In this document: positions 26,988 to 34,961 of the stretch, piece after piece
Position numbering within the stretch: position 1 is the stretch's first letter
Layout of the letters: every line of letters starts with the position of its first letter
NCBI GenBank assembly: GCA_018644665.1
Contig: JABGQA010000084.1
Span: 1-64,000, forward strand
Origin: Candidatus Poribacteria bacterium
Lineage (GTDB): Bacteria > Poribacteria > WGA-4E > GCA-2687025
DNA length: 64,000 nucleotides
Direction: 5' to 3'
Translations under genes and position numbers: made by a program
The notes under the pieces: model-generated
Database searches by the model: none
Told to the model about the DNA's origin: nothing
What the model saw: the letters and a program-made list of their open reading frames with translations, nothing else

Positions 26988-27530
26988 ATGGACGGCACTG
27001 TGGAACGCATGGCGTATGTCGGGCTCGGCTCCAACGTCGGGGACAGGCTGGCGAACCTGGTGGCCGCAACGGAGATGCTCGACGGTGATGGTTGTCGCGT
27101 GACCGTGGCCTCGTCGGTGTACGAGACGGAGCCCGTTGGGTACGCCGACCAGGACTGGTTCCTAAACGCCGTAGTCGGAGTGGGTGTGCGCGCCACCGTC
27201 CGAAACTTCCACGCGCGGCTAAAGGGTATTGAGGCCGATATGGGCCGACGGTCGCGACATAGGTGGGGCCCCCGCGAGATCGACCTGGACCTTCTCCTCT
27301 TCGAGGGGGAGACCGTCCAGGACGACACCCTCACGATACCTCACCCGCGCATGCACGAACGCGCCTTCGTGATGAGGCCGCTGGCGGAGATCGCGCCGGA
27401 CGTCACGGCGCCTTCAATGCCCGCGACCGCGCACGAGGTACTGAACCGGCTCAACGACCCGGCGGAAGTGCGCCTGGCCTACCCTTCGACAGTCCTGGCG
27501 CCTGCTTCCCAGGCGCGTCGGAAAGCGTGA
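26988..27530 (+). CDS. folK: Folate biosynthesis pyrophosphokinase (HPPK)
   Basis: 180 residues. YVGLGSNVGDR at the start and RRSRHRWGPREIDLDLLLF with the ATP and pterin-binding residues are HPPK signatures; IPHPRMHERAFVMRPLAE completes the fold. It pyrophosphorylates 6-hydroxymethyl-dihydropterin for folate synthesis. Last gene of the long forward run. A GC-rich 7-bp stem with a 5-base loop (27498-27516) lies in its last codons but lacks a T run, so I do not call a terminator. Confidence 0.94.
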   Translation: MDGTVERMAYVGLGSNVGDRLANLVAATEMLDGDGCRVTVASSVYETEPVGYADQDWFLNAVVGVGVRATVRNFHARLKGIEADMGRRSRHRWGPREIDLDLLLFEGETVQDDTLTIPHPRMHERAFVMRPLAEIAPDVTAPSMPATAHEVLNRLNDPAEVRLAYPSTVLAPASQARRKA

Positions 27531-27733: not shown

Positions 27734-30700
27734 ATGACTTCCCGAATAGCTCCGCCGCTCGCCGTTGTCGTCGCCGCCCTCGTGTGTGTGACCGCGTACG
27801 GGCAGTCGTTCGTAAACGGCCCCTTCGCCATCGACAGCGCGGGTGAGACGGGCGTCCCCAGCATCAATCCGGCTATCCAGCAAGCATCCGTCGTCTTCGA
27901 GACCGGCGGCGCGGGACACTTCCGCGTCATCATAGACACGCACGGTGTCGGCGCTCTCGGCGCGCCCGACGGCGTCTTCGACGTCGACGACGACTGGGTG
28001 TGGATGGGAGTCGCCGGGATACAGCCGACGCCCGCCTTCGGCGTTGGAGACACGTCTGTGGCCGGCCGCGCCGACTGGGACGGCCTCACGGTCTGGGAGG
28101 GATCCACCGTCGCGGACGATGGCGTGTACACTGCGCAGGTAGAACTCGGCGCGTTGCCCGACGACATCACCGGCGGGACCGCGACGACCGCGACCGTGCA
28201 GATTGAGGTGGACACGCTCGCTCCGTCGGTGTCGCTGGACATAGGCGCAGTGTCGCCCAACGGCGACGCGTCGCAGGATTCAGTCACCGTTACGTACGCG
28301 GTTTCCGAGGCGACGGCGGAAGCGGAGTTCTCGACGACGAGCGGGCCCGTGCTGAACGCTCCGGCCATCACGCTGCCTGCCACGCTTCCGGCGTCCGGCA
28401 CGACCGTATGGGCCGGCGTAGACGTCACCGGCGCGGCCGCCCCTGACGGCGCCTACGAAATCACGCTGACGGTAACAGATGCCGCAGGCAACACCGGCGC
28501 GGCGACCACCGCTGTGATCGTGGATACCGAGGCGCCTCTGTTGACGGGCCTGGAGCCCGCCGCAGGTAGTCGGCTGAACAGCGCAGTAAGCGAGATCGTC
28601 GCCAGCTTCGACCCGTTGTCCGGCGCGCCCATCGAACTCGACGGCGCGCAGATCACCCTCACCGGTTCGGCAGGCGCGATCGCAGGCACGCTCGAGCAGG
28701 ATGTAGCCGCGAACACCGTCCGTCTGCGTCTCGACACGCCGCTCACGACTTCCGCCGAAAACGACACGTACACGGTCGATGTGACCGCCGCGGACGAAGC
28801 GGGCAACGCGGTGACGCGCAGTTCGTCATTCACGTTCGACACCGTCGCCCCAGTCCTGTCGCAGGTGACCAACGCCGACGGGCTCCCGTTGGGGCCAGGC
28901 GTGCCGCTGACAGCCTCCGACACGCTGTCGATCGCACTCGTCGAAACGGGATCGGGCATCGACTTCTCCGGCGCCGCCGCCATACTCACCGGGCCGTCGG
29001 GCGCGCTCACACCCCTGGCCGTCGAGACATCGCCCCTACAGCTATCCGCGGGCTACGCAAACCTCTCTGAAGAGGGCGTGTATACGTTCGTCGTGGACGG
29101 CGTCCGCGACCTCGCCGGGAATGTCGGGGAATCTCGCACGGTGACGTTCCTCCACGACACGACTGCGCCGACGATCGACGCTCTGAGCCCGCTGGATGTG
29201 CAAAGCGGCGCCACGGGCCGCTTCCGCGAGCCACTCGAAGCATTTGCCATGACCGTGTCGGACGAACTGTCCGATGTTGACTTCGCAGGATCGGCCCTGG
29301 TTGTAACGGGGCCTGGCGGCGCGGTTTCGGGATCGCTCGTTGACGACAGCGCGAACACGCTGACGCTGCAGCTCGATGCTCCGCTTAGCCGCCTCGGCGA
29401 CGAAGACGGCTCCTACACCGTTCGCGCGACCGTCGCCGACACTGCGGGCAATCTGCGACAGCGCACGTTTGCCTTCGTGTACGACACGCAACCGCCAGCG
29501 GTGAGCGCATCCGTTCCCGCCGGGGGGGCAACGGTCTCCGGCGAAATCAGCTTCTTGGAGGCGACCGTCAGCGACGTGACGTCCGGCGTGGACTTCACCG
29601 GCGTCTCGGCGCTTCTCACCGGCCCGGACGGCGAACCGGTTCCCGCGTCTGTTCTGGCGCAAGACGCCGACACAATCCGCGTCTCGTTCCCGACCCTGCG
29701 GGATGACGGCTCTGCCGACGGCACGTACCGACTCCAACTCACACTCGTCGACCTTCACGCGAATACGGCGCTGGACGTCCGCGAGTTCACATTCGCCGGG
29801 CGCGCGCCCCGAGTCGCACAGTTCGTCCCTGGCGACGGAGCGGCGACCAATCAGCTTGCGCAGATCAGCGTTACGCTAGTCGACCAGGCCGGCTCGGGGC
29901 TCGATCTCGACGCGTCCGTCGTGCGCGTGACCGACCCCGACGGCGCCGACGTTCCCGGACGCGTCTCGCACGACGGCGACGCCACCTTGAGCTTCGTCGC
30001 CGATGCCCCCATCGCCACCGACGGCTCCGTGGACGGCGCGTACGTCGTGACCGTCACTGCTGTGGACCGTCGTGGGGCCAGCGGAGCCACCGCGGCTGTC
30101 GTGACACTCGACACACAGCCTCCGACCGTGGTGATCCTCGACCCCGCGGATGGCTCGACGTTCCCCGATGCGACCCCGACGATCGCGGTGCAGCTAGCCG
30201 ATGAGGGAGCGGGCATCGACTTCGCCGCCACCTTGGTCGCCCTGGCTGCCCCAGACGGATCACCGGTCACGCTCAGCGTGCGTAACGACGGCGCGGGCGG
30301 ACTGCTCGTGTCGACCGCGCAGTTGACGCAGACGGGGATCTACCGGCTGACCGTCACACCGGCGGACCGAGCCGGCAACGCCGGCCTGGCCTCCGATGCG
30401 CTGCTTAGCCACGAGATCGCGCGCCCGTCCGTCGTGTCCATCAGTCCTGCGAGTCGCGGATTCGTGAGCGACATAGACGCCGTGGTCGCGACCCTCGCAG
30501 ATGCGTCGAGCGCGTCGACGATCGAGGTCATCGCGCCCGACGGCTCCAGCCTGGTCGGCAGCACCGAATTCGCGGCAGGCGTGCTCACGTTCGCCCCGGA
30601 GACGGCTGTGGTCGCCGACGGCCGAGACGACGGTGAGTACACCGTCGTCGTGGTCCCGGCCGACGCGTCCGGCAACGCGGGCGAAGCGCGCAGTTTCCGC

Positions 30701-33700
30701 TTCACGTACGACACGCAACCGCCTGAGATCACGTCAGTCGACCCGCTGGAGCTGCTGAACGCAGAGGTCTTCCTCTCGCGCAGCATCGCGCGCATCGTCG
30801 CGAGCATCGGCGACGCGACCTCTGGGCCCGACTTGAGCGCGTCGAGCGTGCGGCTTCTTGATGAAGCCGGCGCCGAGGTCTCAGGATCACTCGTCGACAA
30901 CAACGACGCGACGTTGTGGTTGCAGTTGGACTCGCCGCTGATCGCGGGCGGCGCGAGCGATGGCCATTACACCGCTGAAGTCATGGCGGCCGACCGCGCT
31001 GGGCACATCACCGTCCTGAGCCAGGCTCTCGTATACGACTCGCTGGCGCCGACCCTCGTGTCCTCGGCGCCCGCTGCCGACGAGACCGTCGCAGAGACGA
31101 TCACGAGCATGACCCTGGAGTTCGCGGACGACGGAGGCAGCGGCCTTGATGTCGCCGGGACGCAGATCACGCTCCGCAGTCCGGACGGCGCGACGATCGC
31201 CACGAACCGCAGCGCGGAAGGCGATGTCGTCACCGTTACGTTCAGCCGTCTGACCCAGGTCGGGGGCTACATCCTGCAGGCCCAGGCGTTGGACCGCGCA
31301 GGGAACCTCGCGGAGAACGCGGTGTCCGTACCGTTCTTCGTGGCCCTCCGCGTGCCAGCGGTGACGTCCCTGTCGATCGGCGGGGCGTCCGGCGTCAGCT
31401 TCACGAACGACCTGAGCGAAGTCCGCGCCGAGTTCGTGGACCGCAGCGGCGTCGGTCTCGACTTCACGGACGACGGGTCGCGCATTGACATCGGCGGGCC
31501 AAACGGTCCAGTGGGCGGCGAAGTCGCCGTCGATGGCTCCGCACTCGTCTGGACGCCGACGGTGATGTTGGCGACGAACGGCGCGGACGACGGCGAATAC
31601 ACGATCTCTGTCACACCCGTCGACCTGTCGGGCCGCGCGGGAGCTGGATTGGAGCGGCGTATCGTCTACGACTCGCAGGCGCCGCGCATCGTGTCCGCTT
31701 CACCCGCGGACACAACCCTAGCCACCACGTTTGTGCGTGACTCGATCTCGTTGCTGGAAGTCACGATCGAAGACATGGGGCAGGCCGGGATCGAACTCGC
31801 GGGGCAGTCGGTCGAACTGGTCCGGGCGAACGGCTCGGTAGTCTCTGGGCGACCCGCGCACGACAACGTCTCGACCGCGCGGTGGCAACTCGACGCGCCC
31901 CTGGCAACGGACGGCTCGGACGACGCTGTCTACACCGTGTCCGTGACGGCAGTAGACCGGGCGGGCAACCGCGAGGTCGCGGAGTACGACGTCGTGTACG
32001 ACACGCAGGCCCCCGCATTCAGCGGCTCCACCCCTGCGGACGGCGCGTCGATCATCCCCAGCCTTGGGCAGATCCAAGCAACCGCGTCGGACTCGGGAAG
32101 TGGCATCGACGCGAGCGCCACAGCATTGGCGCTAACGGGCCCGGACGGCGGCGAAGTGGCCGGACGCCTGAGTTATGACGGCGCCGACGGCTTCACGTTC
32201 GACATCGAGGGGCGCCTCACGGATGTCGGCGAGTACCGGCTCGCGGGTGTGTTCGTCGACCGCGCCGGGAATGCGCGGACGGTCGACATGTCGTTCTTCC
32301 ACGCTGCGAACACGCCGACGGTGCTGAGCACATCGCCAACGACCGCGCCGGTCGACGAGGCATTCGCGCCCGCCGGCCTGGATGAAGTGAGCGCTCGTCT
32401 GCAGGCTACCGGAACCGGCGGGATATCGCTGCTATCGTCGCAGTCGGTGATTCGCCTTGCCGGGCCCGGAGGCGCGAACGTACCCGGTCTCCAAGCGTCG
32501 AGCGGGGCCAATGACATCGTGTACCGCCTGACGCGCGCGCTGGCTGACGACGGCTCCGACGATGGCACATACCAGATCGTCGTCGTCCCGGCGAACGCTG
32601 CCGGCATACAGGGCCCCACCGAGACCTTCACCTTCGTCTACGACACGCAGGCTCCGGAAGTCGACTCCAGCCTCGGGACCCTCTTCCCGCAGGCCGGTTC
32701 GCCCGGGGCAATCGCGGGCTTCTTCGTCAGCGTCGACGATGAGGCGCCGGCGTCCGGGATCGACTGGGACGCTGTAGACAACAGTTGGCTCGTCCTGGAA
32801 GGGCCGGATGGCTCCGAAGTCGACGCCCGCGTCACCGGTGACGACGCCGCCACGCTGTCGCTGGTCATGACGACGCCCCTAGCCAGCGATGGATCGCAGG
32901 ACGGCGAATACGTCCTGGGCATCTTCGTGGCCGACCGCGCGGGGAACGAGACAGTCGTCGGATTCGCATTCGACCTCGACACGACGGCTCCCGTCGTGGA
33001 CGGCGGTTCCCTCGTCGTGAACGAGATGCCCGTCCTCCTCGACACGAACAGCCTCGACTACCCGACCAGCGTCAACACCGAAACCGGCGTCACGATACGG
33101 GTGAGCATCGCCGATGATCGGGCCGGCGTGGATCTCGCGCGCTCGTCCATCCGACTAGTGTCGCCACAGGGCGAGCCCATCGGCGGCACGCTCCGTCAGA
33201 ACAACGTGGATACGCTGGAACTCGTCTCGGGCCCGCTATCCGTCGAGGGCCTGTATCGCATCACCATCACCGCGCTGGGTGCGGACGCCAGCGGCCTTGG
33301 CATCCAGCCTGAGAGCACCCTCGGCGCGACGTTCCTCTTCGAGAAGACCCCGCCGACCGCCGAGATCATCGACGCGGGCGGGACCGGGATCTTCGAGAGC
33401 GAACCGGCGCATCTGGCGGGCTTCGCAAGCGATCCGCCCAGCGGTGAGCAGGCGGCCGCGTCTGGCGTCGCCCGTGTTGAGATCGGCGGCACAGGGCCGG
33501 ACGGCTCCGATCTGGAGTGGGAGGACGCTAAGGACGAGAGCATCGAGCAGCAGAAGGCGTGGTCCGAGTGGTCCGCGGAGTTCCTTCCCAGTCGTTCTGG
33601 GAAGTACCGAGTCGTCGCGCGCGTCACGGACAAGGCCGGCAACTCGAACATCATCGACGTGGGGACGCTTGAGTTCACCACCTCGTTGGCGTTCAAGGGC

Positions 33701-34006
33701 CCGGTGTACGTGTGGCCCAACCCGCTGAGCCGCACGGGCGGCGATGTCGCGCATTTCTCCTTCGCGACGAACCAAGCCGACCGGGCAGACGTCACGGTGA
33801 GCGTCTTCGACGTCTCCGGCACGCTCGTGTACCAGAAGAGCGGGCAGGCGGATCGCGACCGGTCCTCCAACGGGCAGACGATCACGTGGAGTCTGCGCAA
33901 CGGCAGCGGAAACGAGGTCGCGAGCGGCATCTACGTGTTTAGACTGGAACTGAGGGACGGCCAGAGCACCGCGCGCAACATGGGTCGCATGCTCGTCGTC
34001 AGATAG
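27734..34006 (+). CDS. Giant secreted Ig-like repeat protein with FlgD-like C-terminal domain
   Basis: 2090 residues from the ATG at 27734, chosen because it opens a signal peptide (MTSRIAPPLAVVVAALVCVT, then AYGQ); there is no clear Shine-Dalgarno, and an ATG at 27680 is the alternative. After a ~150-residue N-terminal part come about sixteen beta-sandwich repeats of ~95-125 residues. Many end in YTVxVTAxDxAGN and are joined by linkers such as VYDTQAP or VYDTQPP. The last ~100 residues (VYVWPNPLSRTGG, then DVSGTLVYQKSG, then ASGIYVFRLEL) match the FlgD Ig-like / type IX sorting-like domain. Asp-rich linkers suggest calcium-stiffened rods. Probably a surface adhesin or stalk; the PorV-like gene follows after 34 bases. 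Confidence 0.85.
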   Translation: MTSRIAPPLAVVVAALVCVTAYGQSFVNGPFAIDSAGETGVPSINPAIQQASVVFETGGAGHFRVIIDTHGVGALGAPDGVFDVDDDWVWMGVAGIQPTPAFGVGDTSVAGRADWDGLTVWEGSTVADDGVYTAQVELGALPDDITGGTATTATVQIEVDTLAPSVSLDIGAVSPNGDASQDSVTVTYAVSEATAEAEFSTTSGPVLNAPAITLPATLPASGTTVWAGVDVTGAAAPDGAYEITLTVTDAAGNTGAATTAVIVDTEAPLLTGLEPAAGSRLNSAVSEIVASFDPLSGAPIELDGAQITLTGSAGAIAGTLEQDVAANTVRLRLDTPLTTSAENDTYTVDVTAADEAGNAVTRSSSFTFDTVAPVLSQVTNADGLPLGPGVPLTASDTLSIALVETGSGIDFSGAAAILTGPSGALTPLAVETSPLQLSAGYANLSEEGVYTFVVDGVRDLAGNVGESRTVTFLHDTTAPTIDALSPLDVQSGATGRFREPLEAFAMTVSDELSDVDFAGSALVVTGPGGAVSGSLVDDSANTLTLQLDAPLSRLGDEDGSYTVRATVADTAGNLRQRTFAFVYDTQPPAVSASVPAGGATVSGEISFLEATVSDVTSGVDFTGVSALLTGPDGEPVPASVLAQDADTIRVSFPTLRDDGSADGTYRLQLTLVDLHANTALDVREFTFAGRAPRVAQFVPGDGAATNQLAQISVTLVDQAGSGLDLDASVVRVTDPDGADVPGRVSHDGDATLSFVADAPIATDGSVDGAYVVTVTAVDRRGASGATAAVVTLDTQPPTVVILDPADGSTFPDATPTIAVQLADEGAGIDFAATLVALAAPDGSPVTLSVRNDGAGGLLVSTAQLTQTGIYRLTVTPADRAGNAGLASDALLSHEIARPSVVSISPASRGFVSDIDAVVATLADASSASTIEVIAPDGSSLVGSTEFAAGVLTFAPETAVVADGRDDGEYTVVVVPADASGNAGEARSFRFTYDTQPPEITSVDPLELLNAEVFLSRSIARIVASIGDATSGPDLSASSVRLLDEAGAEVSGSLVDNNDATLWLQLDSPLIAGGASDGHYTAEVMAADRAGHITVLSQALVYDSLAPTLVSSAPAADETVAETITSMTLEFADDGGSGLDVAGTQITLRSPDGATIATNRSAEGDVVTVTFSRLTQVGGYILQAQALDRAGNLAENAVSVPFFVALRVPAVTSLSIGGASGVSFTNDLSEVRAEFVDRSGVGLDFTDDGSRIDIGGPNGPVGGEVAVDGSALVWTPTVMLATNGADDGEYTISVTPVDLSGRAGAGLERRIVYDSQAPRIVSASPADTTLATTFVRDSISLLEVTIEDMGQAGIELAGQSVELVRANGSVVSGRPAHDNVSTARWQLDAPLATDGSDDAVYTVSVTAVDRAGNREVAEYDVVYDTQAPAFSGSTPADGASIIPSLGQIQATASDSGSGIDASATALALTGPDGGEVAGRLSYDGADGFTFDIEGRLTDVGEYRLAGVFVDRAGNARTVDMSFFHAANTPTVLSTSPTTAPVDEAFAPAGLDEVSARLQATGTGGISLLSSQSVIRLAGPGGANVPGLQASSGANDIVYRLTRALADDGSDDGTYQIVVVPANAAGIQGPTETFTFVYDTQAPEVDSSLGTLFPQAGSPGAIAGFFVSVDDEAPASGIDWDAVDNSWLVLEGPDGSEVDARVTGDDAATLSLVMTTPLASDGSQDGEYVLGIFVADRAGNETVVGFAFDLDTTAPVVDGGSLVVNEMPVLLDTNSLDYPTSVNTETGVTIRVSIADDRAGVDLARSSIRLVSPQGEPIGGTLRQNNVDTLELVSGPLSVEGLYRITITALGADASGLGIQPESTLGATFLFEKTPPTAEIIDAGGTGIFESEPAHLAGFASDPPSGEQAAASGVARVEIGGTGPDGSDLEWEDAKDESIEQQKAWSEWSAEFLPSRSGKYRVVARVTDKAGNSNIIDVGTLEFTTSLAFKGPVYVWPNPLSRTGGDVAHFSFATNQADRADVTVSVFDVSGTLVYQKSGQADRDRSSNGQTITWSLRNGSGNEVASGIYVFRLELRDGQSTARNMGRMLVVR
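28208..33690 (+). repeat. Array of about sixteen ~105-residue Ig-like repeats within the giant protein
   Basis: Linker motifs recur at about residues 158, 262, 367, 473, 582, 690, 791, 895, 991, 1100, 1203, 1311, 1420, 1524, 1635, 1747 and 1871, a near-constant spacing. Canonical linkers with DT(Q/T/L)(A/P)P alternate irregularly with degenerate ones lacking the Asp-Thr (GRAPRV, IARPSV, LRVPAV, ANTPTV). Repeats are diverged from one another, so this is an old array, not a recent DNA-level expansion. Confidence 0.8.
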
Positions 34007-34040
34007 CCACGGCGCCGACTACGGAGAGTTAAGCATAGTG

Positions 34041-34961
34041 ATGAAGGCCCCAACAGCGATCGTCGCAGTTGCCCTGATGGCGGTTTCCCTCGGCGCGCGC
34101 GCGCAGGCGGACATCAACGAGAACGCGGGCACGCGGGCCGTGCCGTTCCTCAAGATGGAGTCCGGCAGTCGCGCGGCCGCGATGGCCGGCGCGTACACCG
34201 GCCTCGCCGACGACGCCGACGGCCTCTTCTGGAACCCGGCGGGACTCGCCGGGATCGCCGCGAAGCAGCTCACCGGTACCCAGAACTTCAGTTTCGGCGG
34301 CATCAACCACGAGACCGTGGCGTACGCCCGCCGCCTGACCGAGAAGGGCGTGGGCGCGGTGAGCTTCCAGGGCGCCTTCGCCGAGATCGAGAGACGGCTA
34401 GGTGACACCGAGGAGGCGGACTCGCTCTTCACTGCCAGCACCTACGGCTTCGGGTTGAGCTACTCGCACGCGCTGAGCGACCTTGCAGTGGGCGGCACCC
34501 TGAAGCTGCTCCAGGAACGCTTCGACATCGAGAACCACACCGGCGTCGCGATCGATGTAGGCGCGCTCTACAACGCCGACGACTACTCGGTCGGCGTGAG
34601 CGTCCTGAGCCTCGGCCCTGAGTTAGACGATTCGGCTCTTCCCCTGACGCTACGCGCGGGCGGATCGGCGATGTTGGCCGATGATGGGCCACTGGCCGTC
34701 GCCGACATCGTCCTCCCGAACGACGACGACCTGAGCGTACGCGTGGGCCTCGAGCAGTGGTTCTTCGATCAGGTGGCTCTCCGCGTAGGCTATCACGTCA
34801 CCGGCGCCGAGAACCCCAACAAGGGGTTCGCCCTGGGCCTCGGGCTCAAGTCGGAGGGCACGAAGTCGCTAGAACACGTCGAGTTCGAGTTGGACTACGC
34901 GTTCATCCCCGAAGACGGCATCGCCGACGCGCACCGCGTGTCGTTCATCACGCGCTTCTAG
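34041..34961 (+). CDS. PorV/PorQ-like (UPF0164) outer-membrane beta-barrel protein
   Basis: 306 residues from the ATG at 34041 (a GTG lies one codon earlier), with GGAGAG upstream. Signal peptide MKAPTAIVAVALMAVSLGAR ends at Ala-Gln-Ala. The mature start GTRAVPFLKMESGSRAAAMA, followed by AYTGLADDADGLFWNPAGLA, is the signature of the PorV/PorQ and UPF0164 family of FadL-like barrels. The rest alternates hydrophobic strands and turns and ends in an aromatic (FITRF), as outer-membrane barrels do. In Bacteroidetes, PorV shuttles cargo bearing C-terminal sorting domains out of the type IX translocon, and here it directly follows such a cargo-like gene. Confidence 0.85.
   Translation: MKAPTAIVAVALMAVSLGARAQADINENAGTRAVPFLKMESGSRAAAMAGAYTGLADDADGLFWNPAGLAGIAAKQLTGTQNFSFGGINHETVAYARRLTEKGVGAVSFQGAFAEIERRLGDTEEADSLFTASTYGFGLSYSHALSDLAVGGTLKLLQERFDIENHTGVAIDVGALYNADDYSVGVSVLSLGPELDDSALPLTLRAGGSAMLADDGPLAVADIVLPNDDDLSVRVGLEQWFFDQVALRVGYHVTGAENPNKGFALGLGLKSEGTKSLEHVEFELDYAFIPEDGIADAHRVSFITRF

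Follow-up and report, generated by a model that had tools for sequence, protein, structure and literature searches.

The presence of type IX sorting tails in Poribacteria raises the question of how the proteins that carry them reach, and possibly stay at, the cell surface. Kamke et al., who reported such tails in 2014, saw no genes for their secretion and did not settle on a pathway (PMC3909097). The type IX system itself has been described as exclusive to Bacteroidota (PMC12618676) or has been listed for FCB phyla only (PMC11285876), and in the open-access literature searched we found no earlier report of type IX machinery in Poribacteria, the 2014 paper dealing with tails only. The locus discussed here lies within a 64 kb stretch of poribacterial DNA (the window) and brings this question down to two neighbouring genes, encoding a giant secreted protein and an outer-membrane barrel. 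From the sequence, the two had been proposed to be cargo and shuttle of a possible reduced or divergent surface-display system.

The giant protein and the barrel encoded next to it

The giant protein of 2090 aa is encoded on the forward strand (27734..34006), in an open frame that begins upstream of the ORF start, at 27263. By inspection of its sequence it begins with a Sec-type signal, which is followed by an N-terminal domain, approximately 16 Ig-like repeats and a C-terminal module. The N-terminal domain (residues 21-230; 27794..28423, forward strand) is shared with five divergent orthologues over most of its length, at 28-46% identity. The repeats have a top self-similarity period of 104-105 residues, and Pfam places Big_13 on 10 and Big_5 on 7 stretches of the protein, while neither Pfam nor sequence comparison revealed a propeller or catalytic domain. 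The ORF, its self-similarity and the Pfam and NCBIfam profiles thus bear out the original description of a secreted protein with about sixteen Ig-like repeats. An Ig domain unit is approximately 4 nm long and, if this value applies here, the array would measure roughly 60-70 nm as a fibre. The G+C content of the window is 67%. Upstream of the giant lies a gene for HPPK (folK) and, 3' of the barrel gene on the opposite strand, one for an NAD(P)-binding oxidoreductase, both assigned by Pfam. Promoter and terminator scans of the locus gave one match of each kind, no more than shuffled sequences give, and no terminator between the giant and barrel genes.

The C-terminal module (residues 1831-2090; 33224..34003, forward strand) combines an Ig-like domain with a sorting tail and is conserved class-wide at 38-71% identity. 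The tail, formed by the last 100 residues (VYVWPNP...GRMLVVR; 33704..34003, forward strand), marginally exceeds the cut-off of TIGR04183, the model of type A tails of the type IX system (24.3 bits vs 23), and matches the C-terminus of PorU by profile with 32 bits. It does not reach PF18962 (14.5 bits vs 27) or CHU_C (19.7 bits, cut-off 27), and no match of the giant to the type B model TIGR04131 was listed at E <= 1. The tail had been described as both FlgD-like and type IX-like; of these two assignments the second stands, and a FlgD identity was rejected, as the scores of 18.4-25.5 bits remain below the FlgD_ig cut-off of 27 (PF13860). Comparisons of the larger module point in the direction of PorU as well. 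The C-terminal end of PorU matches the last 134 residues of the giant with 52.6 bits, a profile of the PorZ C-terminus matches the module with 30.6 bits, and a profile search of solved structures with the module returned PorU as the best match (E 3.5e-7). The same protein is the best solved match by fold (6za2, E 3.9e-8; runner-up 5.8e-6) to the predicted model of the module, which has a pLDDT of 81.

The barrel gene starts 34 bases past the stop codon of the giant and encodes a putative PorV/PorQ-family outer-membrane barrel of 306 aa (34041..34961, forward strand). The barrel passes the models of the PorV/PorQ family (NF033709, 130.4 bits vs a cut-off of 90) and of UPF0164 (33 bits vs 21.4), and remains below the equivalog cut-offs of both PorV proper (NF033710, 46.2 bits vs 250) and PorQ proper (NF033711, 63.5 bits vs 220). 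It scores higher against PorQ than against PorV, and on this ground may be a candidate part of an attachment complex. Although the predicted model of the barrel is of moderate confidence (pLDDT 64.5), its fold is best matched by PorV in the SprA translocon (8gl6_F, E 1.9e-10; 6h3i_F, E 1.1e-9), ahead of TodX and FadL folds (1.4e-6 and weaker), and a profile search of solved structures returned PorV (E 1.7e-16) and nothing else convincing. Clustering with fatty-acid transporters, which would have spoken against the predicted PorV-like nature of the barrel, was therefore not observed, and FadL-type transport was rejected as a function, given the score of 18.6 bits against PF03349 (FadL/TodX; cut-off 29.7) and the better match of PorV by fold and profile. 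PF11751 (PorP_SprF) was not reached either (12.5 bits vs 22.3). In a tree of 32 barrels, all 16 orthologues form one clade with a support of 100/100, to the exclusion of seven further barrels encoded in the genome of the window. A genome scan with the barrel sequence alone recovered no relative, whereas an alignment-based scan did.

Conservation of the pair and of its gene order

The barrel orthologue and the C-terminal module of the giant were searched separately in 59 genomes, including the one that holds the window. Both were found in one copy each in 56 genomes, the same 56 for both, and a full match to either is absent from the remaining three (G001, G002 and G021). In 53 of the 56, the two genes are neighbours on the same contig and strand, with 34-376 nt between match ends, except in G004, in which an extra gene lies between them and the spacing is 1314 nt. 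With the two genes next to each other in 53 of the 59 genomes, the arrangement is far beyond chance. Among contigs named as Poribacteria, many of them from the same genomes as the 59, the module is located upstream of the barrel in 66 of 69, and two of the three exceptions begin at a contig edge. Co-absence from three incomplete genomes is weak evidence, because the loss of one contig removes both genes. Of the three, G021 is 90% complete and has SprA and PorU-type genes. Stronger evidence comes from G007 and G010, which have kept both genes on different contigs with ample flanking DNA that excludes an edge effect; the assembly of G009 is too fragmented to judge adjacency. Giant orthologues in the 56 genomes span 1320-3971 aa, some being truncated by contig ends; those judged full-length have 2090-3971 aa, and contig ends account at least in part for the shorter ones. 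Orthologues of the giant came exclusively from Poribacteria, and those of the barrel (36-61% identity) all belong to records named Candidatus (or uncultured) Poribacteria. Judged from these sequence comparisons, the giant and the barrel are a class-wide conserved unit, in agreement with the predicted pairing of cargo and shuttle, which is single-copy and retained even where the genes have been separated.

Within the giant, conservation is concentrated in the module, which reaches 63% identity in two relatives of the same family, whereas the repeats stand at 38-44% and the N-terminal domain at 41-46%. It occurs in one copy per genome and is matched across the class with 332-476 bits; in the genome studied here it is matched with 382 bits, and the next best tail with 62 bits. 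The higher conservation and far better match suggest that the module is a dedicated interface, while high conservation is also compatible with a signal that is removed later.

Related gene orders were observed elsewhere. One PorU of the same genome is directly followed by a PorV-family barrel (C142), which is nearest to PorV2 (112 bits), and each of three closed relatives has one PorU with such a barrel directly downstream. Two further giants of the same genome, of 2857 aa (L088 7663-17315) and at least 3327 aa (L087 942-11950), directly precede PorV-family barrels, and in neither was a sorting tail recognised. Beyond Poribacteria, two large unrelated proteins with a type A-like tail are directly followed by a PorV-family barrel, namely a subtilase/FG-GAP protein of 2473 aa from Zixibacteria (L164 2551-10918) and an Ig protein of 1035 aa from Elusimicrobia (L172 1871-5977), in one record each. 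Most of the remaining Zixibacteria barrels inspected have an unrelated gene context. The arrangement of a tailed protein and a barrel is thus probably wider than Poribacteria.

Type IX components elsewhere in the genome

The genome, an assembly of 175 contigs and 7.47 Mb with 92.9% completeness and 5.3% contamination, was searched for other parts of a type IX system. No further match to the tail, SprA, PorU or PorV models falls within the window, as originally noted, and matches to all four lie elsewhere in the genome. FlgD_ig matches at about 115 places, nearly all above the cut-off, and two proteins of approximately 2000 aa contain a PorU-type C25 peptidase (283 and 264 bits), in both of which a GHGG histidine and a cysteine align to the catalytic His and Cys of PorU; neither reaches the cut-off of the equivalog model NF033707 (420). 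PorV-family matches occur at 12 places, and SprA_N is matched with 31.3 bits vs a cut-off of 27. A PorU-type peptidase was detected in 29 of 30 genomes searched and SprA (TIGR04189) in all 30, mostly in frames of 2000-2300 aa. The poribacterial SprA is best described as a divergent homologue at the sequence level, because its score in the two-contig near-closed genome G029 (147 bits) is under the equivalog cut-off of 200, and it is identified by profile evidence only, a single-sequence search against solved structures giving no match. PorP/SprF-type barrels occur in some relatives at low score only. The motor and ring models TIGR03517, TIGR03513 and TIGR03523 gave no match to GldM in the genome studied here, or to GldL and GldN in 20 genomes each, in searches that were run without a positive control genome. 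With this many tails, two PorU-type sortases, 12 PorV-family barrels and SprA, the system can hardly be called reduced, as had been suggested. Divergent is the term that fits, given the components below Bacteroidota equivalog cut-offs and the GldL, GldM and GldN profiles that remained empty under the above restriction.

Several individual loci came to light in the same searches. The SprA gene of the genome is split into two overlapping frames (G000:C171:54707-58532; L202 3919-6726 and 5963-10960), which may reflect either a genuine frameshift or a fault of the assembly. In G002, a SprA scores 508 bits together with its neighbours in the frame (G002:C30:112-4146; L186) and is by far the closest to the Bacteroidota model among the poribacterial SprA found, with a second SprA fragment at C4; transfer or contamination is a possible source. 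A tandem array of ten FlgD-type tails, spaced by approximately 3.3 kb on one strand in frames of about 1080-1220 aa, is present at G000:C46:98931-129780. A 738-aa protein (L083 7095-9311; G000:C171) combines a weak PorV-family start, a FlgD_ig/CHU_C-like middle and a SPOR end.

Possible function of the pair and its relation to known systems

We favour, with a probability of roughly 60%, the explanation that the giant forms a long fibre on the cell surface, exported by a divergent type IX route and captured, and probably retained, by its dedicated PorV-like barrel. The protein would enter the periplasm by means of its Sec signal and use the SprA-like channel to pass the outer membrane, after which its PorU-like C-terminal module would dock in the PorV-family barrel encoded just downstream (module and barrel were modelled as separate chains). 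The barrel would pull the giant from the channel and most likely remain bound to it, and the approximately 16 Ig units would then project as a stalk. That the giant takes this route, binds the barrel, keeps its tail and serves as a fibre or adhesin is our inference from the families, the gene order and the precedents described below. The higher PorQ score of the barrel, the GldL, GldM and GldN searches without a match and the split SprA gene of the genome weigh against this explanation.

The main rival to this explanation assigns the pair to the secretion machine itself, as an attachment subcomplex resembling PorQ-PorZ or PorV-PorU, in which the giant would act as a scaffold and not as an adhesin. 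A near-universal, single-copy and thus core-gene-like occurrence would be expected of such a part, and the closer score of the barrel to PorQ and the likeness of the module to the C-termini of PorU and PorZ are in line with it. The same is true of the tail, the length of which (approximately 100 residues) recalls the uncleaved tails of PorU (108 residues) and PorZ (96 residues) in Porphyromonas gingivalis and not the cleaved ones (67-88 residues; PMC11285876), a resemblance that is only suggestive because the same study found no features that tell cleaved from uncleaved tails. However, the giant is devoid of the propeller and catalytic domains of such partners, its Ig array varies strongly in length, and SprA and PorU-type genes occur without the pair in G021, possibly owing to a gap in that assembly, so that we regard a role within the machine as unlikely.

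Two further explanations concern the relation between the two genes. If the giant were an ordinary type IX cargo, its tail would be cut by PorU and the protein linked to lipid, and the barrel would simply be a specialised recycling shuttle. Such a fate accords with the passing of the type A model by the tail and with the PorU genes of the genome, yet the module is conserved far above the body of the protein and is matched so much better than any other tail of the genome, which suggests a dedicated interface, and we consider this explanation improbable. Neighbouring genes can, by inference, also be co-inherited without any interaction of their products, in which case a generic surface protein would happen to lie beside a generic FadL-like barrel. 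Such an adjacency without functional coupling is very improbable, given the retention of both genes in 56 of 56 genomes, two of them with the genes separated, the PorV-like rather than FadL-like nature of the barrel, and the recurrence of the same gene order in the PorU-barrel pairs.

If the fibre-and-carrier explanation is correct, the pair suggests that individual carriers for single surface proteins, hitherto described for the combination of type B tails and SprF-type barrels, also exist for type A-like tails combined with barrels of the PorV type. Furthermore, the SprA, PorU and PorV homologues make the pathway question of 2014 directly testable in Poribacteria, and a widespread uncultured lineage of sponge symbionts would gain a candidate surface fibre for host contact. 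A broader and rather doubtful speculation is that Poribacteria, sponge symbionts included, operate the outer-membrane half of a type IX system (SprA, PorU and the PorV family) on a power source other than the GldL/GldM motor and with an own PorV-type carrier for individual surface proteins, the giant-barrel pair providing a fixed, phylum-wide coat or adhesion fibre.

Among known systems, the pairs of type B cargo and SprF-type shuttle offer the closest working model, as in SprB-SprF and the type B PorP-SprF pairs of Flavobacterium. In these, too, a very large surface protein, repetitive and with its signal at the C-terminus, is accompanied by a dedicated barrel, the shuttle of type B cargo being encoded directly downstream (PMC12618676), and the SprF-type shuttle has been proposed as the anchor of its cargo (PMC9143113), as we propose for the poribacterial barrel. 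The pair described here would thus work in a similar manner with different parts, since its tail is type A-like and its barrel belongs to the PorV/PorQ family, not to PorP/SprF. For the holding of a partner by a PorV-family barrel there is a precedent in Bacteroidota, in which PorV keeps PorU, and PorQ keeps PorZ, at the cell surface (PMC5562754). The P. gingivalis pairs share with the poribacterial one the barrel family and a surface protein with a PorU/PorZ-like C-terminal domain, retained in P. gingivalis and probably also here, whereas the poribacterial barrel accompanies a giant Ig array without sortase or propeller and forms a distinct clade. The PorU2-PorV2 pair (NCBIfam NF052324/NF052325) likewise consists of a paralogous tailed protein and a PorV-family barrel; however, the barrel of the window scores just 40 bits against the PorV2 model, and the giant has no peptidase. 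With PorV as the general type A shuttle, the barrel shares its family, its fold and the likely mode of binding a type A-like tail. In contrast to PorV, which serves all type A cargo, it tracks a single protein, and a standalone PorV-family barrel of the same genome (C20, 179 bits) is, by its sequence, the better candidate for the general shuttle.
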